64,000 nucleotides of DNA from Arthrobacter beigongshangensis (GTDB taxonomy: Bacteria > Bacillota > Bacilli > Bacillales_A > Planococcaceae): NCBI RefSeq assembly GCF_016820585.1, contig NZ_JADHDX010000005.1, positions 62,001-126,000 of the forward strand. The letters are read 5' to 3'. Made by a program: the position numbers and the translations under genes. The notes beneath the pieces were generated by a model. The model did not search any database, was not told where the DNA came from, and saw only the letters and a list, made by a program, of their open reading frames with translations. This document shows, piece by piece, positions 40,030 to 60,914 of the stretch (positions are counted from its first letter, which is position 1; every line of letters begins with the position of its first letter).

Positions 40030-40040
40030 TGTTAAGTTAC

Positions 40041-44832: not shown

Positions 44833-46653
44833 ATGTTAGCTTATTTTCCAACTATATATAAAGATGAACTCATATATAGCATGCTGAGTAGATATCACCA
44901 TCGTTCGGGGAACGGAACCCTTAAGGAATCTACAATGGATTTATTTGGAGAAAGTAATGCGTATATTATTCCCGACTTAACAACTAAGTTAAGGGCGTTA
45001 GTATGCAGGGTTGGTCAATTTCATAAAGTAAACATCGACGATTGGATTAATAATCACACTTTATATAATTATTATACAAATTTTAACACTAAAAATATTA
45101 AACAGGCTGTTAGGTTTTATATGGTAAATGGTGATGGAGAAAATAAATTACATTATTTAACTGGTCAAATGGCGACTACTATAAAAGAACCCCTATTTTT
45201 TCGATATTGTCCTGAATGTCTAAAAATAGATATACAAAAAAATGGGGAAACTTATTGGCGAACATATCATCAATTACCCAGTGTATTTGTTTGTCTTGAA
45301 CATGAAGTTCCATTAGCGGATAGTAAAGTAAAGATTAGACCAGATAATTCAATACTTTCCCATCCTAGTATTGAAAATTGCCAAACTAAGTATGAACATG
45401 ATTTCATAAAGCTCAAAAGTTTATGGTTTTACATAATTGGTGAGGAAAGTTATAAAGTAACAATCAAAAATTATGACTTCGACCAGATAAAATTATTTGG
45501 AATTTACCATTATCTTTTGCGGAAAAAGGGATATATGAAATCTAAAGGAACAACTAATCAAATTAAATTAAGAGAAGATTTTATTAACTTTTTTGGAATA
45601 GAATTTTTAGAAATGATGCAATCATTACCATGCGGTGTTGATGGAAAGTGTTGGTTGAAAGCTATAACCAGAAAACACAGAAAATCATTTCATCCAGTAA
45701 GGCACTTATTATTAATCCACTTTTTAGGTGAATCAGTAGATACAATTTATCAAAATGCAAATAAGTTATATCATCCATTTGGTGAAGGTCCATATTTATG
45801 TTTAAATCCCGCGGCAAATCACTATCTTATGCCTGTTCTATTAAATTTAAAGGTGACATGGTGCAAAGATACTAAAAGACCAGTTGGCACCTTTTCCTGT
45901 ACATGTGGCTTTGTTTATTCCCGTAGAGGACCTGATGAAATGCCAGGTGACAAAACAAAAATAGGACGTATTAAAGAATTCGGCGAAATATGGTTGGAAG
46001 AACTACAACAATTAGTTGAAAAAGAAAAGTTGAGTTATCGTGCATGTTCAAAAATACTAAAGGTTGATATCAACACAATCATTAAGTATTCTAAGCCTCG
46101 AAAAAATAAACCTATTGGTGTGAAAATTATCACGACATGTAATTCAAAGCAACAATGGCTAGACTTAATAAAACATTATCCATCATTATCAAAAACTGAA
46201 CTCAGAAAAAAGAATCCAGCAATTTACATGCGGATTTATAGGAATGATAAGGAATGGTTGAAAAATAATTCGCCAGTTACTAATGTAAATGTTATTACTA
46301 CCAACAGAGGAGATTGGATAAATAGGGATCTCCAAGTACTGGATGAAGTAAAAAAAGCATTAAAAGATTTATACTCTAAAGAAAAGCCTGTTAGAATAAC
46401 TGTAAGTAGTATTGGAAAAGCGATTAATCAGAAATCCCTTTTGGAGAAAAAAGCAGATAGGCTGCCATTGACAATGGAATTCATTGATACCGTCAAAGAA
46501 ACCGTAGAGGATTTTCAAAAAAGACGAATTAAATGGGCGGTGAACCAGTTAGCGGATGAGAAACTTGAAGTATGGAAAATAATGCGTAGAGCCGGTCTGA
46601 AGAGTGAATTTTATCCCAGTTTGGCAGATGAAATATTACATTACTTAAAATAA
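44833..46653 (+). CDS. tnsD: Tn7-like target selector TnsD (TniQ family)
   Basis: Sequence-specific DNA-binding protein that directs insertion to attTn7. The N-terminal TniQ domain begins FPTIYKDELIYSMLSRYHHRSG, and a CCCH zinc finger is formed by Cys126, Cys129, Cys154 and His157 (CPEC, then CLEH). A second cysteine cluster SCTCGFVYSRR lies near residue 360, and helix-turn-helix-like segments follow. It has 606 residues, longer than Tn7 TnsD (508). Location immediately downstream of glmS fits a glmS-targeting TnsD. GGAGCG precedes the ATG. No tnsE follows. Confidence 0.92.
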   Translation: MLAYFPTIYKDELIYSMLSRYHHRSGNGTLKESTMDLFGESNAYIIPDLTTKLRALVCRVGQFHKVNIDDWINNHTLYNYYTNFNTKNIKQAVRFYMVNGDGENKLHYLTGQMATTIKEPLFFRYCPECLKIDIQKNGETYWRTYHQLPSVFVCLEHEVPLADSKVKIRPDNSILSHPSIENCQTKYEHDFIKLKSLWFYIIGEESYKVTIKNYDFDQIKLFGIYHYLLRKKGYMKSKGTTNQIKLREDFINFFGIEFLEMMQSLPCGVDGKCWLKAITRKHRKSFHPVRHLLLIHFLGESVDTIYQNANKLYHPFGEGPYLCLNPAANHYLMPVLLNLKVTWCKDTKRPVGTFSCTCGFVYSRRGPDEMPGDKTKIGRIKEFGEIWLEELQQLVEKEKLSYRACSKILKVDINTIIKYSKPRKNKPIGVKIITTCNSKQQWLDLIKHYPSLSKTELRKKNPAIYMRIYRNDKEWLKNNSPVTNVNVITTNRGDWINRDLQVLDEVKKALKDLYSKEKPVRITVSSIGKAINQKSLLEKKADRLPLTMEFIDTVKETVEDFQKRRIKWAVNQLADEKLEVWKIMRRAGLKSEFYPSLADEILHYLK

Positions 46654-47205: not shown

Positions 47206-47742
47206 TTAACCGGGTTTAATCTGCTCCATATAACCTTTAATATCGTTTTCCGACATTTCCCCTGTTATTATTTTTTCAATCTTACCTTCCGGGTTGATAA
47301 GTAAGGTGGTAGGCAAAGGTTTGACATTATACGCCTGCATTACACTTTTTGTTGTATCAATTAAGGTCGGAAACGTCATGCCATATTGTTCGACGAATGC
47401 CTGGACTTTCAAATCAGATTCAGCAATATTTACAGCTAATATTTGAACTCCTTGATCTTTATATACCTCATACTGACGCCCCATGGCAGGCATTTCCTTT
47501 TTACAAGGAGCACACCAAGTACCCCAAAAGTTTAAAAAGACCCCTTGTCCCTTATACTCTGATAACTGATGTTCTATCCCATCCAAATCAACAAGCGCAA
47601 AGTCTGGAGCATAATCACCGACCTCTAAAACATCATATTTCTCTTTTGTCACACTTGTGTATATTGTAAAGACAATGGCTGCCGCCAGAACGGACAATAT
47701 TATGATACGGGTAATAAAACGGTTCCTTTTTTTGTCATTCAT
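47206..47742 (-). CDS. ResA/TlpA-like thiol-disulfide oxidoreductase
   Basis: A 178-residue protein with an N-terminal membrane anchor (residues 10-28) and an extracytoplasmic thioredoxin-like domain of the TlpA/ResA class. The redox site is WCAPC (Cys77, Cys80), and the cis-proline is in KPLPTTLLI. ResA of Bacillus subtilis reduces apocytochrome c. The frame extends upstream to 47817, but ATG 47742 follows AAAGGGG. It is divergent from the two-component genes, with mirrored promoter sites between them. In this cargo it would use reductant from the CcdA-type proteins at 50979 and 51793. Confidence 0.88.
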   Translation of the reverse strand: MNDKKRNRFITRIIILSVLAAAIVFTIYTSVTKEKYDVLEVGDYAPDFALVDLDGIEHQLSEYKGQGVFLNFWGTWCAPCKKEMPAMGRQYEVYKDQGVQILAVNIAESDLKVQAFVEQYGMTFPTLIDTTKSVMQAYNVKPLPTTLLINPEGKIEKIITGEMSENDIKGYMEQIKPG

Positions 47743-47818: not shown

Positions 47819-47932
47819 ACTATACCGAAGATTTATGAAAAAAGTATGCAGACACAAAGAAGTCATGAATTCAAGTGAACTCCTTGATTTGACTTACGTC
47901 TGCATACATTTTCCACAATTTTTTTCTATACT
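47819..47932. promoter_or_regulatory. mirrored divergent promoters with identical sites
   Basis: Plus strand: GTCTGCATAC (47898-47907), 19 bases, then TATACT (47927-47932). Minus strand: the same GTCTGCATAC (47844-47853 complement), 19 bases, then TATAGT (47819-47824 complement). Neither has a good -35, and TGACTT precedes each site at similar distance. This suggests activator-dependent control, most simply by the response regulator at 49345. Confidence 0.7.
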
Positions 47933-47962: not shown

Positions 47963-49324
47963 ATGAATAAGATTTCGAAAAAACTGGCTGCTTACTTTAT
48001 CGTTTCTTTCCTCGTACTGGAAACAGTGCTGATGATGTATTTACACCAAAATATCATTCATACAAGAGTGGATGAAGAATATGCCCGCTTATTAGCGAGT
48101 GGTTCGAACCACCGAAATGTTCTAATAGACCATTATTCAGCTGAAACAATCACGCACATTGTTTTAATGGAAGCTGAAGGGGACAGAGGCGTTATCATTA
48201 CTGGAAAGAACGGTGAGGTTATCCAGAGTTCGGATAAAAAATTAGAAAATCTAATGCCTTCCTTGTCTTTCCTACAAAACTCCACTATTCAAAATGATCG
48301 AGTTGTCATGACGGATTGGGAAGATTCGCCATATATCGTAAGCGCCCATCCATATGAGATAGATGAGGATAGAACAGGATTTGTTTTGATGTTCCAAAGC
48401 AGCGCCCCAATTGAACGGTTGGTTGGGAAACTGAACTTTCACTTCAGTTTGGCGGGGGGAGCAATTATCATCATCCTTTTTGTCATCTATTCGATTCTAT
48501 CCAAATTTCTTACACGACCATTGATACGCATGAAAGAAGCGACGGAGAAATTAAGTGAAGGGAAATTCAATGTAAGCCTTCCGGCAGGGGGGAATGACGA
48601 GCTTGGCGAATTATCAGTCGCAATTCGGAAGTTGGCAACCGATTTGGAAAGGATGAAAAAGGAGCGTAATGAGTTTCTTGCATCCATCTCCCATGAATTA
48701 AGTACTCCGATCACTTATTTAATAGGGTATTTAAAAGTCGCGATGAGACCTGAGCTGACTGAAAAGGAAAGAAATAGTTATCTAACGATTATTGAAGAAG
48801 AATCAAATCGGATGAAAGATCTCGTGAAAAACTTAATGGACTTGGCGAAAATGGATGAAATGACGTTCACTGTATCTAAGATGCATTTCTCAGCCCAACA
48901 ATTTATTGAAGATATTTATCGTCTTGTCGTTCCTTCTTTTGATTTGAAAAATGTAAAGTTGAATGTGATATGTACAGAGAATTTTCAAATCGATGCAGAT
49001 CCACTACGACTGGAACAGATTGTACTGAATCTATTGGATAATGCTTTAAAGTATTCAGAGCAAAATACAACGGTAAAGGTGGAAATTTCCATGGAAAACC
49101 AACGAACTCTCATTTCTGTCAAAGATGAAGGGATTGGAATTCCAGCAGAACAAATCGATCTGATTTTTGAAAAGCTTTTTAGAGTTGAAAAATCCCGTTC
49201 CAGAACCTATGGCGGATCTGGTCTTGGTCTAGCGATTGTAAAAGAATTGGTGGAAGCACATGGAGGAACGATAAAAGTAAAAAGTGAGTCGGGAAAAGGG
49301 AGCCTATTCACGATAAAGATATAA
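47963..49324 (+). CDS. sensor histidine kinase
   Basis: Membrane sensor kinase of 453 residues. Two membrane segments (about residues 8-28 and 150-175) enclose an extracytoplasmic sensor region, followed by HAMP, the HisKA dimerisation helix with the phospho-acceptor His in SISHELSTPITYL (near residue 240), and an HATPase domain (N box NLLDNALKYS, G1 DEGIGIP, G2 GGSGLGLAIVKEL). The H-box reads HELSTP where HELRTP is usual. ATG 47963 lies after GAGGAGAGGAG; an ATG at 47939 has no site. It is paired with the OmpR-type regulator 20 bases downstream. The signal is unknown; metal or thiol stress is suggested by neighbours. Confidence 0.92.
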   Translation: MNKISKKLAAYFIVSFLVLETVLMMYLHQNIIHTRVDEEYARLLASGSNHRNVLIDHYSAETITHIVLMEAEGDRGVIITGKNGEVIQSSDKKLENLMPSLSFLQNSTIQNDRVVMTDWEDSPYIVSAHPYEIDEDRTGFVLMFQSSAPIERLVGKLNFHFSLAGGAIIIILFVIYSILSKFLTRPLIRMKEATEKLSEGKFNVSLPAGGNDELGELSVAIRKLATDLERMKKERNEFLASISHELSTPITYLIGYLKVAMRPELTEKERNSYLTIIEEESNRMKDLVKNLMDLAKMDEMTFTVSKMHFSAQQFIEDIYRLVVPSFDLKNVKLNVICTENFQIDADPLRLEQIVLNLLDNALKYSEQNTTVKVEISMENQRTLISVKDEGIGIPAEQIDLIFEKLFRVEKSRSRTYGGSGLGLAIVKELVEAHGGTIKVKSESGKGSLFTIKI

Positions 49325-49344: not shown

Positions 49345-50022
49345 ATGCGAACGATTTTGCTTGTAGATGACGAACACAGGATGCTCGATTTGCTGGAGCT
49401 GTTTTTGGAGCCTCATGGATTCAATTGTACAAAAGCGGATAACGGAAAAAAAGGACTAGAAATAGTAGAACAAGAAAAGGTCAATCTCGTTTTATTAGAT
49501 GTGATGATGCCGGATATGGATGGTTGGGAAGTGTGTAAGAAAATACGTGAAATTTCGACTATCCCGGTGATTATGCTAACTGCGAGGTCGGACAAGGCAG
49601 ACCTAGTAAAAGGGCTTGAATTTGGGGCGGATGATTATATCACGAAACCGTTTGATGAGAGGGAACTTGTGGCGCGGGTAAACGCATTGCTACGCCGCAC
49701 TACAAGTAATAAAGAAGATACTAGCAACCCAGTGTATGGCGACTTCTTATTGAATCGGGATTCTTATTCGTTGCATTACAAAACCCTAGATGTGCAACTT
49801 ACTTTGAAAGAATTTTATATTATAGAGGCGTTAATTACCAGTCCGAAAAGGACATTTACACGGGAACAGCTATTACGCACAGCATGGGATTTTAACACAT
49901 TCACAGATATTCGAACAGTGGACTCACATATACGAAATTTAAGGGAGAAGTTGAAAAATGCGGGATTCCCGATGGATGACTTTTTAAAGACAGTGTGGGG
50001 AATCGGCTATAAATGGAGCTAA
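49345..50022 (+). CDS. OmpR/PhoB-family response regulator
   Basis: A 225-residue regulator with an N-terminal receiver domain (acidic pocket Asp8/Asp9, phospho-acceptor Asp52 in LLDVMMPDMDG, conserved Lys in ITKPFDERE) and a C-terminal winged helix (LTLKEFYIIEAL, and TVDSHIRNLREKL). AAGGAGTTGAG precedes the ATG. It partners the kinase at 47963. The mirrored GTCTGCATAC sites in the divergent promoter are likely targets, which would make the operon self-activating and coregulate the ResA-like gene. Confidence 0.95.
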   Translation: MRTILLVDDEHRMLDLLELFLEPHGFNCTKADNGKKGLEIVEQEKVNLVLLDVMMPDMDGWEVCKKIREISTIPVIMLTARSDKADLVKGLEFGADDYITKPFDERELVARVNALLRRTTSNKEDTSNPVYGDFLLNRDSYSLHYKTLDVQLTLKEFYIIEALITSPKRTFTREQLLRTAWDFNTFTDIRTVDSHIRNLREKLKNAGFPMDDFLKTVWGIGYKWS

Positions 50023-50038
50023 AGGAGATATGAATAGG

Positions 50039-50956
50039 ATGAAGAAGTTCAAAGTTATTGTGGGATTGCTATCACTGGTCGCCATCATGTCGGCCTGTAA
50101 TAAAGAAAGTGAACCGTATGCGTTTGACAAAGTGAAGAATGGTACTTTTGAGCACTTACATGGTTTGGGATATATCAATGGAGGCCCAGAAATTGTGATT
50201 TCAACGCATGATGGGCTTTATGAATATGGCAAAGACGGTTGGAAAGAAGCAAACAGTGAAAAGCATGATTATATGGGTTTTCAAGCCATACGTGACGGTT
50301 TTTTCTCAAGTGGTCACCCAGAACCGGGATCCGACTATAAAAATCCACTCGGTTTAGTTAAAAGTACGAATCGGGGAGCTAGTTTGAATAAATTGGCGTT
50401 CTATGGAGAAATTGATTTTCATTACCTAGCCGCAGGATATGATTCAAACGCGATTTATGTACTCAATGAAATGCCGACCAAAGAGATGTCAGATGGTTTC
50501 CATTATACGCTAGATGAAGGGACGACTTGGGAAAAGGCTTCGATGTCTGGATTCAAATCTGATTTTATTTCGAACTTGGCTGCACATCCTTCCGCTAAGG
50601 AGCTGATTGCCATCGGGAGTAAAGATGGGATATTCCTTTCGAAAGATTACGGTGAAAGTTTCAATTTGTTTAGTAATGCAAAAATGGTCATTTATGTGAC
50701 GTTGACTGAAATCGGAGGATACTATTCGAGTTATGAAAATGAAATAGCTCAGCTCAAGTCATTTACATTTAGTGACGATGAAGAAACGACTATTCAACTA
50801 CCTAATGAAAATATAAGTCCTATCGTTTTTATCGCGGTTAATCCGGATGATGAGAAAGAAATTGTTATCGGAACCTATACGAACGATATTTATGTGACGA
50901 AAGATGAAGGAGTCAATTGGGATATGCTCGCGGTAAATGGTGAATTAGCGAAATAA
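50039..50956 (+). CDS. lipoprotein with sortilin/BNR-like beta-propeller (F510_1955 type)
   Basis: An exported lipoprotein of about 305 residues with a lipobox at Cys20 (IMSAC). The mature part contains repeated propeller-like blades with Asp-box forms such as SKDGIFLSKDYGESF, TLDEGTTWE and VTKDEGVNWD. It resembles the proteins annotated as F510_1955 family glycosylhydrolases, whose activity is unproven. Either ATG 50030 or 50039 may be used; 50039 has better spacing to AAAGGAG. It lies directly after the response-regulator gene and before a CcdA-like gene, so it is likely under the same two-component control. Confidence 0.75.
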   Translation: MKKFKVIVGLLSLVAIMSACNKESEPYAFDKVKNGTFEHLHGLGYINGGPEIVISTHDGLYEYGKDGWKEANSEKHDYMGFQAIRDGFFSSGHPEPGSDYKNPLGLVKSTNRGASLNKLAFYGEIDFHYLAAGYDSNAIYVLNEMPTKEMSDGFHYTLDEGTTWEKASMSGFKSDFISNLAAHPSAKELIAIGSKDGIFLSKDYGESFNLFSNAKMVIYVTLTEIGGYYSSYENEIAQLKSFTFSDDEETTIQLPNENISPIVFIAVNPDDEKEIVIGTYTNDIYVTKDEGVNWDMLAVNGELAK

Positions 50957-50978: not shown

Positions 50979-51713
50979 ATGTATGGATTGATGTCGAAAA
51001 TCAGTCAAACGATAAGTGAACCGCTTACGATACTTGTACATTCTTTTGCAGATGTTCCACTAATTTATGCACTTCTATTGGGATTAATAGGTGCAGTTGC
51101 GCCTTGTCAGTTGACTGGAAATATGAGTGCGATCACTTTTTATGGGAATCGTACGGTTCAAATAAAGGCAGATTGGGTAGAAATTCTTTTCTTTATTGCC
51201 GGGAAAGTTGCAGTCTTTAGCTCTCTTGGACTTCTGGCATGGCTATTTGGCCAATCGTTTGAAACAAAAATGACAGAGTACTTTCCAATGTTCCGAAAAG
51301 CGATTGGTCCACTTATTATTATGACAGGACTTGTTTTGATAGGGGTTCTAAAACTAGGATTTCTTCAACGCATAACAATGCGGATCCCGATGAAGTTGCG
51401 TGAGGGAAAGTTTGGTTCCTTTTTGTTGGGAGCTAGTTTTTCGCTTGCCTTCTGTCCGACTATGTTTGTCATATTTTTTCTTTGGCTTATGCCCGTCGTT
51501 GTAACGACATCGTATGGTTTAGTTCTGCCAGCCGTTTTTGGTATTGCAACTTCACTCCCTCTCCTATTACTGTTCTTTTTAATATGGTTTTTTGATGCGA
51601 AGCGCTTAATTATGAAGCGAAGCATGAAAATAGGAAGAGTTATACAACGTTCTGCTGGCTTTGTATTAATCGTAATTGGAGTTTTGGATACAATTACTTA
51701 TTGGGCGATTTGA
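50979..51713 (+). CDS. CcdA/DsbD-like cytochrome c biogenesis membrane protein
   Basis: A 244-residue protein with six or seven membrane segments. The two conserved cysteines of the CcdA/DsbD transmembrane family are in GAVAPCQLTGN (near residue 43) and SLAFCPTMF (near residue 158), so it probably carries electrons from cytoplasmic thioredoxin to extracytoplasmic partners. GGATGGTG precedes the ATG. It is followed 79 bases later by a second, shorter CcdA. Two such carriers next to a ResA-like protein are notable. Its exact partner is unknown. Confidence 0.82.
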   Translation: MYGLMSKISQTISEPLTILVHSFADVPLIYALLLGLIGAVAPCQLTGNMSAITFYGNRTVQIKADWVEILFFIAGKVAVFSSLGLLAWLFGQSFETKMTEYFPMFRKAIGPLIIMTGLVLIGVLKLGFLQRITMRIPMKLREGKFGSFLLGASFSLAFCPTMFVIFFLWLMPVVVTTSYGLVLPAVFGIATSLPLLLLFFLIWFFDAKRLIMKRSMKIGRVIQRSAGFVLIVIGVLDTITYWAI

Positions 51714-51792: not shown

Positions 51793-52503
51793 ATGTTTGC
51801 GGATTTGAACCTATTTCTTGCGTTTGGTGCAGGATTTTTGAATTTTATATCTCCTTGCACATTACCGTTATATCCAGCTTTTATATCTTACATAACGGGA
51901 ATGTCGCTTGATGAACTTAAATCAGATAAAAAGAGATTTAGGAAAAGCGGGATCTTACATACAATTTTTTTTCTAATCGGATTTTCAGTAATTTTCATCT
52001 TTCTCGGTTATAGCTCATCACTTGTCGGTACATTCTTTTATCAGTACCAGGACCTTTTACGACAGATAGGTGCGATTTTCATTGTTATCTTCGGTTTGAT
52101 GATTTTAGGTTTCTTCACACCTAAGTTTCTTATGCAGGAGAAAAAATTACAATTTAAAAATCGTCCAGCCGGTTATTTTGGTACGTTCCTCATAGGACTT
52201 GCATTTGCAGCGGGATGGACCCCATGTACAGGGCCTATCACGGGGGCTGTTTTCATGATGGCGTCTCAAAACCCAGGCTCGGGTGTATGGTATATGGGTG
52301 CGTACGTTCTTGGATTCGCAATTCCATTTTTCCTTATGTCCCTATTTATAACCCGAGTTTCATGGATACAAAAACACAACCGGGTAATTACGAAAGTTGG
52401 GGGATATATCATGATTGCGATGGGCGTACTGCTCTTCTTTGATGGTTTGACGTATATTATTATTTGGCTAAGTCCTTTTTTTGGCGGTTTTATGGGGTTT
52501 TGA
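51793..52503 (+). CDS. ccdA: cytochrome c biogenesis protein CcdA
   Basis: A 236-residue membrane protein with six hydrophobic segments and paired cysteines in FISPCTLPLYPAF (near residue 22) and GWTPCTGPITGA (near residue 142), the standard CcdA pattern. It shuttles reducing equivalents from thioredoxin across the membrane to ResA-type proteins. AAAAGGAGCC precedes the ATG. It lies between the other CcdA-like gene and lgt on the same strand. Confidence 0.9.
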   Translation: MFADLNLFLAFGAGFLNFISPCTLPLYPAFISYITGMSLDELKSDKKRFRKSGILHTIFFLIGFSVIFIFLGYSSSLVGTFFYQYQDLLRQIGAIFIVIFGLMILGFFTPKFLMQEKKLQFKNRPAGYFGTFLIGLAFAAGWTPCTGPITGAVFMMASQNPGSGVWYMGAYVLGFAIPFFLMSLFITRVSWIQKHNRVITKVGGYIMIAMGVLLFFDGLTYIIIWLSPFFGGFMGF

Positions 52504-52621: not shown

Positions 52622-53434
52622 ATGTTTAATATTCTTGCAATAAATCCGTTTGCATTTTCGCTTGGGTCATTCGGAGTCCGTTGGTACGGGATTTTGATAG
52701 CACTCGGCATCGTTCTAGCATTTATTGTCGTTCAGAAGGAAATGAAGAAACGTGGCATGCATCCGGATTTTTTGACGGATTTACTTGTGTGGGCGATTCC
52801 AATTTCCATCATCAGTGCACGGATCTATTACGTCATTTTCTCTTGGGATTACTATAAAGAAAATCCAGGGCAAATCATTCAAATTTGGGAGGGTGGCATC
52901 GCCATCCACGGTGCGTTGTTTGGTGCTTTTATTACGACATATATTTACACGAAGCGTCGCGGTGTTTCGTTTTGGAAAACGGCGGACATAGCAGCTGCTG
53001 GACTTCTGATAGGTCAAATAATTGGACGATGGGGCAATTTCATGAACCAAGAAGCGCATGGCGGTCCTGTATCGGAAAAGTTTCTTGAAACGACAATCAT
53101 TCCGGATTGGATCATGAAACAAATGACGATTGAAGGCGTGACATATCATCCTACATTTCTTTACGAATCGCTGTGGAACATTGTGGGGCTTATCATCATA
53201 ATTTTGCTGCGCAGAGGAAACTTGAAGCGTGGCGAAATGTTCTTGTTTTACCTCGTTTGGTATTCCACTGGACGGCTCTTCATCGAAGGGATGCGGACGG
53301 ATAGTTTGTATATCATTGGTGAACTTCGGGCGGCACAACTTGTATCCGTTACGGCTATTGTCGCTTCAATCGTTCTATTTATTATCAGACGTTATGTTCG
53401 GAAAGTGAATGTGAATTATCGGGATGAATACTAG
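52622..53434 (+). CDS. lgt: prolipoprotein diacylglyceryl transferase
   Basis: Membrane enzyme attaching diacylglycerol to the lipobox cysteine of prolipoproteins. The Lgt signature [14 protein letters not shown] (near residue 140) and the C-terminal [13 protein letters not shown] are present, with seven membrane segments over 270 residues. GGAAAGGGG precedes the ATG. An lgt copy is also expected near hprK on the chromosome, so this may be a second, mobile copy accompanying the lipoprotein at 50039. That chromosomal copy is outside the window and is assumed. Confidence 0.93.
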
Positions 53435-53475: not shown

Positions 53476-55191
53476 ATGTTTCGCTTATTAGATAATTGGT
53501 CGATAAGGCTGAAGCTTTTTATCAGCACGACAATCATTTTAATAGTTTCATTCGCTATATTAGGTTATCAACAAGCGAATAATGTGATATCCATTATCGA
53601 GGGAGAAGCGCTGGAAAAGGCTCAATCTGATTTGCAAATGGGATTAGCAGTTATTGATTATAAATATCCTGGTGAGTGGAAATTGGAAGGAGAGAATTTA
53701 TTTAAGGGATCAGTAGTAATGAATAATAATTTCGAGATTGTTGATTTAATTGAAGAATTAACGAACGGAGATACAGCGACATTATTCGCAGGTAATACGA
53801 GTATCACATCTAGCGAGATGTCCGCGGGCGAACGAGGAATTGGGACTAAAGCTATAAAAAAAGTTGCAGATCAAGTATTGACTAAAGGCGAAATATTCCA
53901 CATAAAGGCCGAAGTACTTGGTCATACTCACCAAACGGTATATGCACCATTAAAAAATGGAAGTGGTGAAATTGTTGGAATTTGGGCTGTTGGTGCCCCT
54001 GATGCATCAATCCGTATTCAAGAAATAAAGAATGCAACTGCTTTAAGTGTCTTCATTTCAACAGTGCTTATTTTAATTGTTTCACTCATTATTTATTATT
54101 TATTGACGAGGCCAATTATAAATCGAATTAAGCTTGCGTCTACTTCACTTGTAAGAGTGGCAGATGGGGATTTATCTTATAAATTACAGGAATCTACGAG
54201 CAATGATGAGACTGCTGTTTTATTGAACGCGGTGAATCGAATGATTGCTCAATTAAAGTTTTTGCTGGATCAAACAAAAAAGGTGTCTATGCAAGTGGCT
54301 AGTTCTTCAGAACAATTAACGGCCAGTACATATGAAAATACGAGGGCTGTGGAACAAATAACCGCAACTTCAGAAGCAGTAGTGAAAGGAGAGCAAGAGC
54401 AACTGAGGAATGTTGAAGAAGCCATTTCCATTGTCGCGACTATGTCGGATGGGATTGACCAATCGATTACGAAGAGTGAAGAAGTGGCGACATTGGCTCA
54501 AGAAGTTTCAGTTGCTTCATCAAAGGGGATGGAGGCAATCGGAATTGTGCTCAATCATATGGAGGGAATCGACAGCAACGTTGCAGAAACATCTATTATT
54601 ATTAAAAACTTGAACGAGCGATCCCAAGAAATCAACGATATTATTTCAATTATTACAGGTATTGCGAGCCAAACGAATTTGCTTGCACTAAATGCAGCTA
54701 TCGAGTCAGCACGCGCGGGCGAAATGGGGAAAGGTTTTGCAGTCGTGGCTGATGAAGTGCGTAAACTTGCTGAACAATCATCGCAATCATCAGAGAGGAT
54801 TGCCCATCTAATTATTGAGATTCAAAGGGAAACAGAAGAGGCAGTGAACTCAATGGCAATCGGAACGAACAAGACAAAAGCCGGAATGATTGAAACCGAG
54901 CAGGCGAATAACATGTTTATCCAGGTGAATGCATCCATTGCAGATGTAACACCGAAAACAGCGGAAGTTTCACGCTATATTCAAGAGATGGCTAGGCAAA
55001 GTAAACAATTGGTGCAGTTAATCGAAATGATTGGTGCCAAGGCGAATGATGGAATTATAATCAGTCAACAAAACAACACTGCGACAGAAGAACAATTTGC
55101 TGTGATGAAAGAAATTGCTTCCTCTGCAACAAACTTATCTCAGCTGTCAGAAATGATGACGCAAACGTTTGAGAATTTTAAGACAGAGTAG
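53476..55191 (+). CDS. methyl-accepting chemotaxis protein
   Basis: A 571-residue membrane chemoreceptor. A first membrane segment (residues 11-32), an extracytoplasmic Cache-like sensor (about 35-190), a second segment (about 192-212), HAMP, and a long coiled signalling domain with the conserved hairpin tip [21 protein letters not shown] (residues 395-415) are visible. TTGGAGGCAG precedes the ATG. Partner Che proteins are not encoded nearby, so it would plug into the host's chemotaxis system. Its ligand is unknown. A terminator follows. Confidence 0.93.
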
Positions 55192-55479: not shown

Positions 55480-57588
55480 TTAATACTTAGAACGCATTAA
55501 TCGAAGAGAATTCAGTACAACAATGACAGTAGCACCCATATCCGCAAAAATCGCCATCCATAACGTTAACCAACCTGGAATAATCAGCAGTAGGGCTATT
55601 AATTTAAGACCTAATGCGAATGAAACATTCTGCAAAATAATGTTTAGCGTTTTGCGGCTTAGACTGATGGTATAAGGCAACTTTTCTAAGTCGTCAGCCA
55701 TTAGAGCAATGTCAGCGGTTTCCAGTGCAGTATCAGTACCAGCGCCACCCATCGCAATCCCTACAGTTGCACTGGCTAAGGCAGGTGCATCATTGACACC
55801 GTCACCGACCATGGCAACATTTCCGTATTGGTTGCGGAGAGACTTGATTGTATCCAATTTATCTTGTGGCATCAATTCAGCTTTAACTTCAGAAAGGCTA
55901 AGTTGGCTACCAATGGCAGTTGCCGTAGCCAGATTATCTCCAGTGAGCATAATCGTTTTTTGTATACCTAATTGATATAACTTCTGTATAATCGTCAAGC
56001 TACTTTGTCGAACCTGATCTGCGACTGCGATCAAGCCTTTCACATCATTACCGATGCCTAACAACATCACTGTTTTACCTTCTTTTTGAAGTGTTTCAAT
56101 CTGGTGTTCGTATTGTTCGGGCAGGGATAACAATTCCCTGAACATATTAGGGCTCCCGATATGGACAAGATCATTGTTAATAGTTGCTTTTGCACCTTTA
56201 CCCGTTATTGATTGAAAATCATCAATAGGAACTAATTTCAAATTTTGTTTTTCGGCATCTCTGATGATAGCAGAAGCTAATGGATGCTGCGAGAATTTTT
56301 CAATAGATGCTGAGATACGAAGAATTTCATCGGTACTCATATCTGTCAATTGAACGATATCCGTTACTTCTGGCGTACCTTGTGTCAATGTTCCTGTCTT
56401 ATCAAACGCCACCACTTTTAAACGTCCCGTTTCTTCCAAATGGATACCGCCTTTTATGAGAACGCCATTTCGTGCAGCATTTCCAATTGCCGTCACAATT
56501 GCAACAGGGGTTGAAATTACTAACGCACAAGGACAACCGACAACCAGAACCGCAAGACCTCTATAAATCCATTCGTTCCAGACACCACCGAAAAATAGAG
56601 GTGGCACTACAACAATCAAGAGGGAAATGATCAATATGGCAGGTGTATAGTACTTCGCAAATTTATCCACAAATTGTTGGGAAGGTGCCTTTTCTGCTTG
56701 AGCTTCTTCGACTAAGTGGATAATCTTGGCGATTGTAGTATCTTCTACTCGTTTTGTTACTCGTACTTCTAGGGAACCTTCTTCGTTAATTGTTCCCGCA
56801 AATACCTCGTTACCGAGAGTTTTATGGACGGGAACAGATTCACCTGTAATGGCTGCCTGGTTGATGGAAGAATCACCTTTTACAACCTCTCCATCCATCG
56901 CAATCTTTTGACCAGGCTTAATGATCATAATGTCATTAATTAGAATATCATTTACGTCAATTTCGAACTCATTGTTACCGCGTCGAATGGTAGCTGTGCT
57001 TGGGGCGATATCCATTAGAGAACGAATTGAATTACGCGCTTTGTCCATCGAATAACCTTCGAGAGCTTCACTTATAGCAAAAAGGAAGACAACAAGGGCA
57101 CCTTCGCCCCACTCGCCGATAATAGCAGCTCCAATAACAGCAATTGTCATAAGGGTATTCATATCGAACTGCAATTTAGTTAGATTTACCAATCCAACCT
57201 TGAATAGACTATACCCTCCAACGAGAATGGCTGAAGCAAAGAGAACGATAGCTAGTATACTTTCTTCTCCCTTATAAAATGAAGCTATATAGCCAAGAAT
57301 TAGCAGGAATAGGGATACAACGGTCGTCTGATTCTCCCGTTTTTTCCAGAATGGCTCTTTCACTTCAACAATTCGTTGCTTTTCAGGATAAACCTTGATT
57401 CCATCAAAGGCTCCAGCCTTTTCTAATTGTTCTACGGATGCATCTCCTAACACAGTTATTTTTGACGCACCGAAATTCAATTGTACATCGTCAACTGTCT
57501 TTATCTCACGAATGTTTTTTTCAAACTTTGCAGCACAATTGGTACAAGATAGGCCTTGCAGTCTATAAACATTTTTGTCTGAACTCAT
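55480..57588 (-). CDS. cadA: cadmium/zinc-exporting P1B-type ATPase
   Basis: Membrane ATPase of 702 residues exporting Cd, Zn and similar divalent ions. It has an N-terminal heavy-metal-associated domain with [10 protein letters not shown] (Cys15, Cys18), the actuator motif TGESVPV, the metal-channel CPC in [14 protein letters not shown] (near residue 350), the phosphorylation site DKTGTLTQG, and [11 protein letters not shown]; the C terminus [16 protein letters not shown] is typical of CadA rather than CopA. The frame opens at an ATG at 57597, but ATG 57588 overlaps the cadC stop as ATGA and has AGAAGG nine bases before it. It is translationally coupled to cadC. Confidence 0.95.
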
Positions 57589-58137: not shown

Positions 58138-58680
58138 ATGAAGAGGATTATTAGTGCAACACTTATTTTGTTGTTCGCATATACAAGCACTGTCTCTGCA
58201 CATACCGGTTTAACGAGTTCATCACCGGCTAATGGGGAAGAAGTGGCTGAAGAAGTCTATGAAATTGTAATGGAATTTAATTCGAAAATCGAATCGACAA
58301 GTACAGTGAAAGTCTTTAATGAAATCAAAGAGGAAATCATCATCGGTAATACGCAAGTGACTGATAACGTGATGACAGGTGGTTTCATGTCGCCGTTAGA
58401 GAATGGTACATACACAGTGGAATGGAAGATTATTGGTGCGGATGGCCACCCAATCGAGGGAACTTATTCATTCATAGTAAATCAAGAAGAATTAGAGGAT
58501 CCGTCAAAATCCGAAGAATCTCGAGAAACACCTGCTGAGCCTATTGAAGACCCAGTAGAGCAGCTAGTTGAAGTTCCATCAAAAGTAGCTTCAAATGATG
58601 TCCTTGTTGTCATCCTTGTCGCTTTGTTTACGATAGCTGGCGGATTTTTTGGCTGGATCATAGGAAGAAGGCACAAGTAA
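58138..58680 (+). CDS. CopC-domain copper-resistance protein with membrane anchor
   Basis: A 180-residue exported protein: signal peptide ending near Ala20 (TVSAHTGL), a CopC beta-sandwich domain with the N-terminal His expected in copper binding and the DGHPIEGTYSF motif near residue 102, an acidic linker (about 118-145), and a C-terminal membrane segment. This is the YobA/YcnJ type of CopC. AGAGAGGAAGAGAAG precedes the ATG. Its stop abuts the start of the CopD-like gene, so the pair form one unit for copper handling. Affinity or direction of copper flow is not shown. Confidence 0.87.
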   Translation: MKRIISATLILLFAYTSTVSAHTGLTSSSPANGEEVAEEVYEIVMEFNSKIESTSTVKVFNEIKEEIIIGNTQVTDNVMTGGFMSPLENGTYTVEWKIIGADGHPIEGTYSFIVNQEELEDPSKSEESRETPAEPIEDPVEQLVEVPSKVASNDVLVVILVALFTIAGGFFGWIIGRRHK

Positions 58681-59772
58681 ATGATTTGGGTTTATATTTC
58701 TGAAAGTTTATTGTATCTATGTTTTTCACTATTGATGGGCGCATTCATCATTCAATTCATTCCGGAACGGTTGAAACCTGAAATTCGTATTTCTAAACGG
58801 TTAATTCAGTTGGCGGTGTTAGGTGTTGTGTTCTTTTCGGTTGCACCTGTGATCAGGATTATCCTATTTCTTTATGAAGATATCGGTCTGATGTTGACTA
58901 TACAAAATGTTTTAACGGGCTTTGAAGTAGGAAAGGCATGGAATTTCACGGTCATACTTGCAATTTTCTTTTACTTGTTTGTATCGTTGTTCCCGGTATT
59001 GAAAAGCAAAGTACTTTCTGGCATTTCATTGGCTTTCACCATCGTTCTGCTCCTTGCTTTAGGATGGGCGAGTCACGCAGCATCGCTTACCGAATGGAGT
59101 GGATTCATCTATCACTCATTGCACTTTTTAGCTGTTACCATATGGATCGGTATACTCCTTGTCGTCGGTTGGTGTTCAAAAAACCAAGAGAATTGGCTTT
59201 CTTATTTAAGATGGTTTACCCCTCTGGCAATCATGTGTTTTCTTACGATTGCGGGAACTGGATTATTTCTTATGACATTGGTAATTGATGTAAACGAATA
59301 TGCGGACGCATGGATGATACCCTATGGCCAAGCCTTATTAGTGAAGCATCTGACCATCATACCTGTTTTATTTTTTGCTTTTATAAATGGGTTCTGGATT
59401 AAACACAAATTGAAAAAACAAGAGCAAATCAATCCATTACCGTGGCTGAAGTTCGAAAGCGTTCTTCTATTCTTTACGTTCGTTTCGACAGGGGTACTGG
59501 GACAACAGGAACCTCCTCATAGTATCGAGATAACTCTCGCAGGCAACGGTCCTTCAGCTATATTTGATTACTTTTATTCAGGGGTCATTGAACCTTCAAT
59601 GAGTTTGCAATTTGGATTCAATACAATAAATACATTATTTTTCGTAGTGGCGATCATCTTCATGTGGCTGATCGTGTACAGCTTTAGGAAAAAGACGCCC
59701 GCAGTTGTTCCATTTTTCATGGGGATGTTCAGTTTCCTTTCGCTCTATTTTGGATTAATGGCTAGCATTTAA
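58681..59772 (+). CDS. CopD-domain copper transport membrane protein
   Basis: A 363-residue membrane protein with about nine hydrophobic segments. The CopD-type core is visible in SHAASLTEWSGFIYHSLHFLAVTIWIGILL (residues 127-156) and IAGTGLFLM near residue 200, with conserved histidines that may bind copper or haem. The ATG starts directly after the copC stop, and the ribosome site lies within copC (AGGAAGAAGG). Together with CopC it likely imports or moves copper across the membrane. Confidence 0.87.
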   Translation: MIWVYISESLLYLCFSLLMGAFIIQFIPERLKPEIRISKRLIQLAVLGVVFFSVAPVIRIILFLYEDIGLMLTIQNVLTGFEVGKAWNFTVILAIFFYLFVSLFPVLKSKVLSGISLAFTIVLLLALGWASHAASLTEWSGFIYHSLHFLAVTIWIGILLVVGWCSKNQENWLSYLRWFTPLAIMCFLTIAGTGLFLMTLVIDVNEYADAWMIPYGQALLVKHLTIIPVLFFAFINGFWIKHKLKKQEQINPLPWLKFESVLLFFTFVSTGVLGQQEPPHSIEITLAGNGPSAIFDYFYSGVIEPSMSLQFGFNTINTLFFVVAIIFMWLIVYSFRKKTPAVVPFFMGMFSFLSLYFGLMASI

Positions 59773-59799
59773 TAATAAATATTAGAGAAGAGGTATTTT

Positions 59800-60474
59800 A
59801 TGAAGCAGAATAAGAATTCAAAGATGAAAATGGCGGTAGTTTTGACACTCGTGGTCGTAGTTATATTGGCAGCAGTCGTCGTATTTAGCAATAAACAGGA
59901 AGCCTTACCAACTGACATAAAGCAAATCGATATCACTGGGCAGCCCTTACTTGGGGAGAAAGATGCACCTGTCACAGTAGTTGAATTCGGTGATTTTAAA
60001 TGTCCTGCATGTAAAGCGTGGGGTGAAATGATTTATCCGAAATTAGTTAATGATTATATCGAAACAGGTACAGTTAAATTTGCATTTGTAAACGTATTAT
60101 TCCACGGTAAAGAATCTACGTTAGGATCGATTGCCGCTGAATCGGTCTTTAAGCGGAATCCAGGTGTGTATTGGGATTTTCATCAAGCATTGTTTGATGC
60201 ACAGCCAACTGAAAATCATGATGCACAATGGATAACTCCAGAAAGAATTCTTGAAATTGCAGTCGGATTGCCTGAGATTGATCAAACACATTTAAAAGAA
60301 GACATGGAACAAGAAGCGACTATGGATAGCGTTAAGCTTGACGAAGATTTAGTAAGAGAAGTTGGCGTATCTTTGACTCCGACCATTGTTATAAACGGAA
60401 AAATGATGGAGGACCCATTTGATTATGAAGCCATTAAGACGGCAATAGAGCAAGCGACGAAGGATGCAGAATGA
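59800..60474 (+). CDS. bdbD: DsbA-type thiol-disulfide oxidoreductase (BdbD-like)
   Basis: A 224-residue extracytoplasmic oxidoreductase with an N-terminal membrane anchor (residues 11-30), redox site FKCPACKAW (Cys68, Cys71), an inserted helical domain, and cis-proline in SLTPTIVING. It introduces disulfides into secreted proteins. GAGAAGAGG precedes the ATG. It overlaps the bdbC start by four bases. In Bacillus subtilis bdbD-bdbC lie beside cadA and copA, an association repeated here. Confidence 0.9.
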   Translation: MKQNKNSKMKMAVVLTLVVVVILAAVVVFSNKQEALPTDIKQIDITGQPLLGEKDAPVTVVEFGDFKCPACKAWGEMIYPKLVNDYIETGTVKFAFVNVLFHGKESTLGSIAAESVFKRNPGVYWDFHQALFDAQPTENHDAQWITPERILEIAVGLPEIDQTHLKEDMEQEATMDSVKLDEDLVREVGVSLTPTIVINGKMMEDPFDYEAIKTAIEQATKDAE

Positions 60475-60914
60475 TGGAGAATAAAGAAAATAAATCCAAG
60501 CCGCAGGGATTCTTATTATATATTGCATGGGTTGTCTCTTTAATCGCCATGTTCGGAAGCCTGTACTTCAGTGAAATCAAAGGATATATTCCATGTGAAT
60601 TATGTTGGTATCAACGTATTCTTATGTACCCACTTACTTTGATATTGGGGATTGGGACTTTCCAGAATGACATTTCCGTTAAAAAGTTCGTACTCCCGTT
60701 ATCCATAATTGGGGGAAGCATATCGTTCTTGCATTATTTAGAGCAGAAGATACCCGGTTTTGGGGGCATCAAGCCATGCGTAAGCGGTGTGCCTTGTAGT
60801 GCACAGTATATTAATTGGTTCGGGTTCGTTACGATACCATTTTTGGCATTAGTGGCATTTGTGATTATTGCTACCTGTATGTTTTTTATAAAATCGAAAA
60901 AGTCAGTTGAGTAA
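60471..60914 (+). CDS. bdbC: DsbB-type disulfide reoxidation protein (BdbC-like)
   Basis: A 147-residue membrane protein with four hydrophobic segments and two redox cysteine pairs, CELCWYQR (near residue 43) and CVSGVPCSAQY (near residue 103), which reoxidise BdbD using menaquinone. It starts at ATG 60471 (ATGA overlap with bdbD) or ATG 60474. A hairpin follows the gene. Confidence 0.93.
   Translation: MMENKENKSKPQGFLLYIAWVVSLIAMFGSLYFSEIKGYIPCELCWYQRILMYPLTLILGIGTFQNDISVKKFVLPLSIIGGSISFLHYLEQKIPGFGGIKPCVSGVPCSAQYINWFGFVTIPFLALVAFVIIATCMFFIKSKKSVE

Follow-up and report, generated by a model that had tools for sequence, protein, structure and literature searches.

Mirrored promoters of a putative copper-type two-component regulon within a Tn7-like element

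In the 64-kb window (the whole stretch of DNA that was analysed), two divergent promoters with the same upstream site separate a gene for a ResA/TlpA-type thiol-disulfide oxidoreductase from a gene for a sensor histidine kinase (HK). With good confidence, this promoter pair can be assigned to a two-component regulon of the copper type, whose divergent control region it would form and which would be run by the adjoining response regulator (RR). Both promoters are very probably part of a small circuit for copper and thiol-redox defence, which is carried here by a Tn7-like transposon. As judged by sequence comparison, the shared site is most likely a PhoB-type operator of this regulator, the whole forming a copper/thiol-redox regulon of the LcoRS type.

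The ResA/TlpA-type gene (47206..47742, minus strand) scored 249.4 bits against NCBIfam NF002854 (cut-off 170), and the divergent HK gene (47963..49324, plus strand) encodes the Pfam domains HAMP, HisKA and HATPase_c. The proposed activator, an OmpR/PhoB-family regulator whose closest named relatives are found in Sporosarcina (85-86% identity), is encoded on the same strand at 49345..50022, with the Response_reg receiver (PF00072, 118.5 bits) and the winged-helix Trans_reg_C domain (PF00486, 74.6 bits) above their cut-offs. Likely members of the same operon, which we infer to be transcribed as a single unit, follow on the plus strand: an F510_1955-family protein with a lipobox recognized by eye, 7 nt behind the RR gene (50030..50956; NF045728, 258.7 bits, cut-off 175), a DsbD_2/ArsG-like membrane protein (50979..51713; PF13386, 68.2 bits, cut-off 24.9), a CcdA/DsbD-TM-type thiol transporter (51793..52503; PF02683, 50.4 bits, cut-off 27.1) and the prolipoprotein diacylglyceryl transferase Lgt (52622..53434; TIGR00544, 249 bits, cut-off 118.9). 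A methyl-accepting chemotaxis protein gene (53476-55191), which starts 41 nt after Lgt, looks like the last gene of this operon. Further copper and thiol cargo occurs at 58138-60914, with CopC-like, CopD-like, thioredoxin-fold and disulfide oxidoreductase genes, the CopC and CopD matches being below their cut-offs.

The 10-mer GTCTGCATAC is present between the ResA/TlpA and HK genes in two exact, inverted copies, at 47844-47853 (minus strand) and 47898-47907 (plus strand), each located exactly 19 nt from a -10 hexamer, TATAGT at 47824-47819 (minus strand) and TATACT at 47927-47932 (plus strand). These are the only exact copies in the window, and eight occur in the genome including these. The first-pass annotation had described this mirrored arrangement together with poor -35 elements, and both descriptions proved accurate: the best -35 matches at a spacing of 16-18 bp reach 3/6 on the HK side and 2/6 on the ResA side. 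Taken alone, the 10-mer pair is weak evidence: when the AT-rich intergenic region of 220 bp was shuffled 5000 times with dinucleotides preserved, a separated inverted exact 10-mer arose in 338 cases. This test scored inverted 10-mers alone and not their common distance from a -10 hexamer. Conservation in other genomes is what raises the pair above the level of chance.

This conservation was assessed with 45 loci of regulator homologs (up to 10.7 kb each) from congeneric and class-level genomes, to which the window was added as row 46, the counts including near-identical strains. The motif, with its -10 in a fixed register, precedes the kinase gene in 40 of the 46 rows, window included. The six rows lacking a regular-expression match before the kinase were L056, L057 and L069-L072. 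In L056 (genome G051), there is no site before HK, and a site instead precedes an oxidase gene that itself precedes HK (L216); in L057 (G029), GTGCATAA replaces CTGCATA and the sequence profile described below still detects both sites; the regulators of L069-L072 exhibit only 46-55% identity. L057 is also the sole exception on the opposite side, where the regular expression recovered the mirrored ResA-side site in 19 of the 20 rows that have a TlpA gene in divergent orientation. The idea that orthologous loci should retain the site was thus borne out within the genus, while in more distant homologs the site was often not found.

Alignment of these loci revealed conservation of a tandem direct repeat, composed of TTCTGCATA and, 11 bp on, TTTTCATA, with the -10 nine bp further and no -35; the exact 10-mer was therefore rejected as the unit. 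On the ResA/TlpA side (minus strand), the upstream half-site GTCTGCATA(C) at 47844..47853, which corresponds to a G(T/A)CTGCAYA kept in divergent-TlpA loci, is followed at 11 bp by the second half-site TTTTTCATA (47834..47842) at the -35 place and by the -10 (47819..47824). On the HK side (plus strand), the upstream half-site GTCTGCATA(C) at 47898..47907, whose CTGCA occurs in 40/40 aligned rows (CTGCA being the search word for these rows), is similarly followed at 11 bp by TTTTCCACA (47909..47917) at the -35 place and by the -10 of the two-component operon promoter (47927..47932). Both second half-sites were recognized by autocorrelation and alignment, and both -10 registers are conserved. 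Half-site identity at a shift of 11 bp was 0.65 on the HK side and 0.58 on the TlpA side, against means of 0.30 and 0.27, and this was the sole peak. Among the TGCA-TGCA distances of 34 non-redundant oxidase promoters, 11 occurred in 6 pairs and 38 in 5, with at most two pairs at each of the other distances from 4 to 36 and at most two at 11 in mononucleotide shuffles.

The first-pass annotation had also placed a TGACTT motif upstream of both promoters. The motif does occur twice, but not in mirror positions, the distance from its first base to that of the 10-mer being 12 nt on the ResA side and 8 nt on the HK side, and only the ResA-side copy is conserved. There, TGAC is found in register in 19 of 21 rows and marks a third half-site, TGACTTCTTTG, on the outer flank, 11 bp upstream of the first (47855..47865, minus strand); on the HK side, TGAC within 14 nt occurs in the window row only. 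The HK-side TGACTT (47890..47895, plus strand), being unconserved, is probably due to chance, and the motif is not supported as an element common to the two promoters. In several oxidase promoters, the proximal site is preceded by a further run of TATGCA/TATGAC half-sites in steps of 11 bp (e.g. L206:9019-9051), which suggests an extended operator there.

Direct repeats about 11 bp apart over a poor -35, as in operators of the OmpR/PhoB family, were found at both promoters, and the layout of the site is that of PhoB-type activator operators. In E. coli, PhoB binds the direct repeats of the pho box head to tail, over the -35, and contacts sigma in a structural model (PMC3348028, excerpt), and the M. 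tuberculosis PhoP site is a 7-bp repeat with a 4-bp spacer (PMC4832192, excerpt). Target genes and presumed signal are different for E. coli PhoB and the regulator studied here. The half-site sequence of the pho box also differs from the half-sites described here. By analogy, the regulator encoded at 49345 would bind as a head-to-tail dimer to tandem 7-bp half-sites (TTCTGCA-like) at a spacing of 11 bp, and it could recruit RNA polymerase in the manner of PhoB, because the operator takes the -35 place, 9 bp before a good -10. The opposite sites would drive ResA/TlpA in one direction and HK-RR-F510-DsbD_2-CcdA-Lgt in the other, and a third site would drive a multicopper oxidase elsewhere in the same element. 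Since one site stands before the HK-RR operon itself, positive autoregulation is proposed.

The same regulator might conceivably act as a repressor, bound at about -41 to -22 (as counted from the -10) and blocking the polymerase until a signal releases it, as the operator extends from the -35 into the spacer, where repressors sit too. We regard this as very unlikely. In the 39 promoters from which the profile was built, the best -35 match is 3/6 or less in 38 and 4/6 in one (mean 2.03/6, versus 2.56 in shuffled sequences), while the -10 matches 4-6 of 6 positions, which fits the need for an activator. Overlap with the -35 is itself compatible with activation, as illustrated by PhoB, and the 1999 paper on lcoRS refers in its title to copper-inducible transcription (cited in PMC5152845, excerpt). 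Activation by the adjoining regulator is thus the reading retained hereafter.

Co-occurrence of site and regulator points to the same protein. A sequence profile of 35 positions was derived from 39 sites (27 HK-side and 12 TlpA-side) and run on 101 genomes under strict filters, which weak sites can escape and which missed the oxidase site of the genome under study. Regulator orthologs were those with an E-value of 1.2e-88 or lower, the other matches in the 61 congeneric genomes being at 1e-51 or weaker, or missing. A site at E <= 2e-4 was detected in 36 of the 37 congeneric genomes with the regulator versus 0 of the 24 without it (61 in total, own genome included), these genomes being related and not independent. 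In this strict-filter scan, the 24 genomes without the regulator had no site below 1e-3, with a best value of 0.00136. Matches on the HK and TlpA sides are partly circular, because the profile was trained on those promoters; the absence of sites from the 24 genomes and the new targets presented below are non-circular evidence.

A different regulator, either that of a second OmpR-type pair in the element or a copper regulator of the host, might instead bind the site, the adjoining pair being merely one of its targets. This second pair was observed inside the element about 20 kb from the locus (L206:5164-6917), and two genomes would agree with such a scheme: G026 (75% complete) has both the site and the oxidase with no regulator found, and in G021 a DsbD_2 gene is preceded by a weak site and a good -10 (L122, G021:C23:193164), likewise with no regulator ortholog found. 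However, the regulator of the second pair was restricted to 9 of the 61 congeneric genomes, versus 36 with strong sites, and it was rejected on this basis as the regulator of the site. A host regulator, for its part, should have left sites in the 24 genomes mentioned above, where the strict-filter scan showed none below 1e-3. Control by a different regulator is thus unlikely, and the first-pass proposal that one OmpR-type activator, in the simplest case the adjoining regulator, serves both promoters is favoured by the distribution of the site (36/37 vs 0/24), by the 11-bp repeats at the -35 place and by the occurrence of further sites before copper genes. We infer that the adjoining regulator binds these sites.

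These further sites broaden the set of candidate targets. Among the extra sites of the profile scan, 26 were examined, 19 of which precede a multicopper oxidase frame of about 500 aa, truncated in two cases (L108 and L113). Another precedes a gene for CueP (L109; NF038094, 192.9 bits, cut-off 60), in L107 two mirrored sites lie at another divergent CcdA/TlpA pair, and L111 has a site before an apparent further kinase start, as read by eye. The matches in L110 and L123 fall within opposite-strand ORFs and are likely false. With a weight matrix, a site (score of about 13 or more) was identified in 25 of the 34 non-redundant oxidase promoters, the remaining nine scoring -10.8 or less, and a score of 13 was reached at 1 of 206,680 positions of control sequence. 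According to gene order, six of the nine site-less oxidase genes lie directly behind the RR, F510 or DsbD_2 gene of the kinase operon, and that of L228 lies behind an apparent ResC end read by eye; L215 and L230 are oxidase copies with neither a site nor an operon position to excuse its absence. The oxidase (E <= 1e-100) was found in 35 of the 37 congeneric genomes with the regulator versus 1 of the 24 without it.

In the genome under study, the oxidase gene starts at C45:135139, on the same contig and 9.1 kb beyond the end of the window. Its promoter has a TGCATA 69 nt before the start (L206:9070), with a profile score of 15.0 bits (E 0.0015 in 39.8 kb). A laxer whole-genome scan and a short pattern recovered this oxidase site and ranked the two sites of the window first, and every operator of this genome that could be recognised in them fell within the Tn7-like element. 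Outside the element, the three best candidates of these two whole-genome scans, which weaker sites may escape, were unlike promoters: C46:140479, an exact match to the short pattern, is located in an ORF and has no -10 in register; C4:31113 falls in an opposite-strand ORF; and C1:629026 is without TGCA, with no gene found behind it. Within the window, a weight-matrix match of 18.1 at 55958, inside cadA, was taken as chance, an overlapping stretch scoring 5.8 bits in the profile.

The element that carries these genes is a Tn7-like element of 43,351 bp downstream of glmS, extending from window position 40030 to L206:19380 (C45:102030-145380), with inverted TnsB-type repeats at both ends and a flanking 5-bp duplication, ATAGC. 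Its genes include what we take by eye to be TnsABC-like products, followed by a TniQ-like one (44833-46653), and presumably a second TniQ-like product by the left end (L206:17178-19022). With the locus inside this element and an inverted TnsB unit loosely similar to the 10-mers, the latter might be stray TnsB-type units, a reading that the first-pass annotation had mentioned. The resemblance did not withstand comparison with shuffled sequence, as identities to the 20-bp TnsB unit (13/20 and 12/20) were also reached in 122 and 265 out of 500 shuffles, respectively. In addition, the exact TnsB unit was present in 1 of the 234 loci searched, which is the element's own left end, and a search of the relatives' 45 loci (up to 10.7 kb apiece) found no match over 40% of TnsA, TnsB, TnsC or TniQ. 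A transposon-end origin of the 10-mers is thus extremely improbable.

As for the regulon itself, the closest known parallel is LcoRS. The regulator shares 48.7-50.4% identity with five Lactobacillales plasmid regulators and falls, together with lactococcal copper-plasmid regulators, in a 39-row clade (support 100/99) apart from other OmpR-type rows, in a tree built with 58 of 92 regulators after removing by number 34 more distant rows, which thinned the outgroup. The stretch that we presume to be the recognition helix is identical in the lactococcal plasmid regulators. Two Lactococcus plasmids, matched to lcoRS by gene content and not by lco annotation, have Lgt and multicopper oxidase genes beside the regulator; both genes are also linked to the regulator in the element studied here. 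In both plasmids, TTCTGCA-N4-TTCTGCA precedes lgt with a TATAAT at the same distance, the profile score being poor (E 0.52), and this sequence is suggested as a candidate LcoR box. No box was found in three Lactobacillaceae plasmid stretches, nor in the promoter of the Lactococcus lcoR itself. The lactococcal systems differ from the present one in their RR-HK order, in lacking a divergent ResA arm, in having a single box where two are mirrored here, and in their second half-site, TTCTGCA in place of TTTTCATA. The lcoRS genes are described as regulating lcoABC in copper resistance (PMC5152845, excerpt).

The CusRS, PcoRS and CopRS copper systems of Gram-negative bacteria also pair a membrane kinase and a response regulator over periplasmic copper proteins, including a multicopper oxidase among the PcoRS targets (PMC7558416, excerpt). 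In contrast, membership of the CusRS/CopRS families was not indicated, with 166.6 bits for the HK (cut-off 292.55) and 161.7 bits for the RR (cut-off 279.2) against TIGR01386/TIGR01387. A description of this operator or regulon was not found in the titles or abstract openings searched, subscription papers being outside the scope of the search.

The signal is most likely an excess of copper outside the membrane, which would be sensed by the kinase. In the outer domain of the latter, His50, His65, Met69, Glu70 and Met143 are invariant in an alignment of 21 sequences and could be copper ligands. The predicted structure of the sensor (pLDDT 86.9) has the WalK receptor domain as its best PDB match, which is not a copper sensor; the WalK-like fold gives no pointer to the ligand. 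The multicopper oxidase, the thiol-disulfide proteins and Lgt, as lipoprotein anchor, would together detoxify copper and maintain exported thiols in the reduced state. As the signal, redox stress on thiols or the envelope, or another metal, has a minor though appreciable probability, a reading that concerns the signal only and otherwise overlaps the preferred explanation. ResA, CcdA, DsbD_2, ResBC and Lgt predominate in the main operon of the window and its relatives, Cd-type CadA/CadC genes are nearby, and no copper-named gene was found in the stretch seen of two plasmid neighbourhoods, one of them from Bacillus methanolicus with redox genes present. However, targets in trans include CueP and the CueO-like multicopper oxidase (413.7 bits, below the CueO cut-off of 525), LcoRS serves copper, and the regulator is accompanied by copper ATPases, copper chaperones or multicopper oxidase on several relatives' plasmids. 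Copper is thus retained as the probable signal.

In this circuit, a copper-type response would be tied to ResA/CcdA thiol-redox genes and Lgt, and the Tn7-like element apparently has a complete regulon as cargo. There is perhaps an even chance that the element is a self-contained, operator-tagged regulon, with copper sensor, regulator, mirrored promoters and a distant oxidase promoter, that is switched on as a module in a new host; if so, copper oxidation, thiol repair and lipoprotein anchoring would arrive together. The operator, TTCTGCATA, TTTTCATA and the -10, also offers a search pattern for extracytoplasmic copper regulons in Gram-positive bacteria, for which CopY and CsoR are the copper regulators named in a review (PMC7558416, excerpt).

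Beyond the genus, few kinase genes were preceded by the site. In the wider clade, where 40 of 80 loci were scored and 18 of these are named (L132-L148 and L190), a site before the kinase at E < 0.001 was found in 3 of the 18 named loci, namely those of Bacillus sp. 7884-1 (L132), Siminovitchia terrae (L135), with another site at 0.0016 before CcdA, and Cytobacillus kochii (L143). A weak match precedes the kinase in L137 (0.24), and in Psychrobacillus (L126) the site precedes a CcdA-TlpA-HK-RR run. Among the plasmid records, 10 of 37 were opened. In Bacillales plasmids outside Sporosarcina, a site before the kinase was present in two of four, those of Priestia megaterium and Cytobacillus firmus (L223 and L226; L224 and L225 were without). 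On the Priestia plasmid, the gene facing away from the kinase gene is that of a multicopper oxidase instead of ResA, with tandem TGCA boxes in both directions. The Sporosarcina psychrophila plasmid pSP10-266k carries much of the operon, together with CopC, CopD and disulfide genes, and has both sites, at 30.7 and 27.4 bits.
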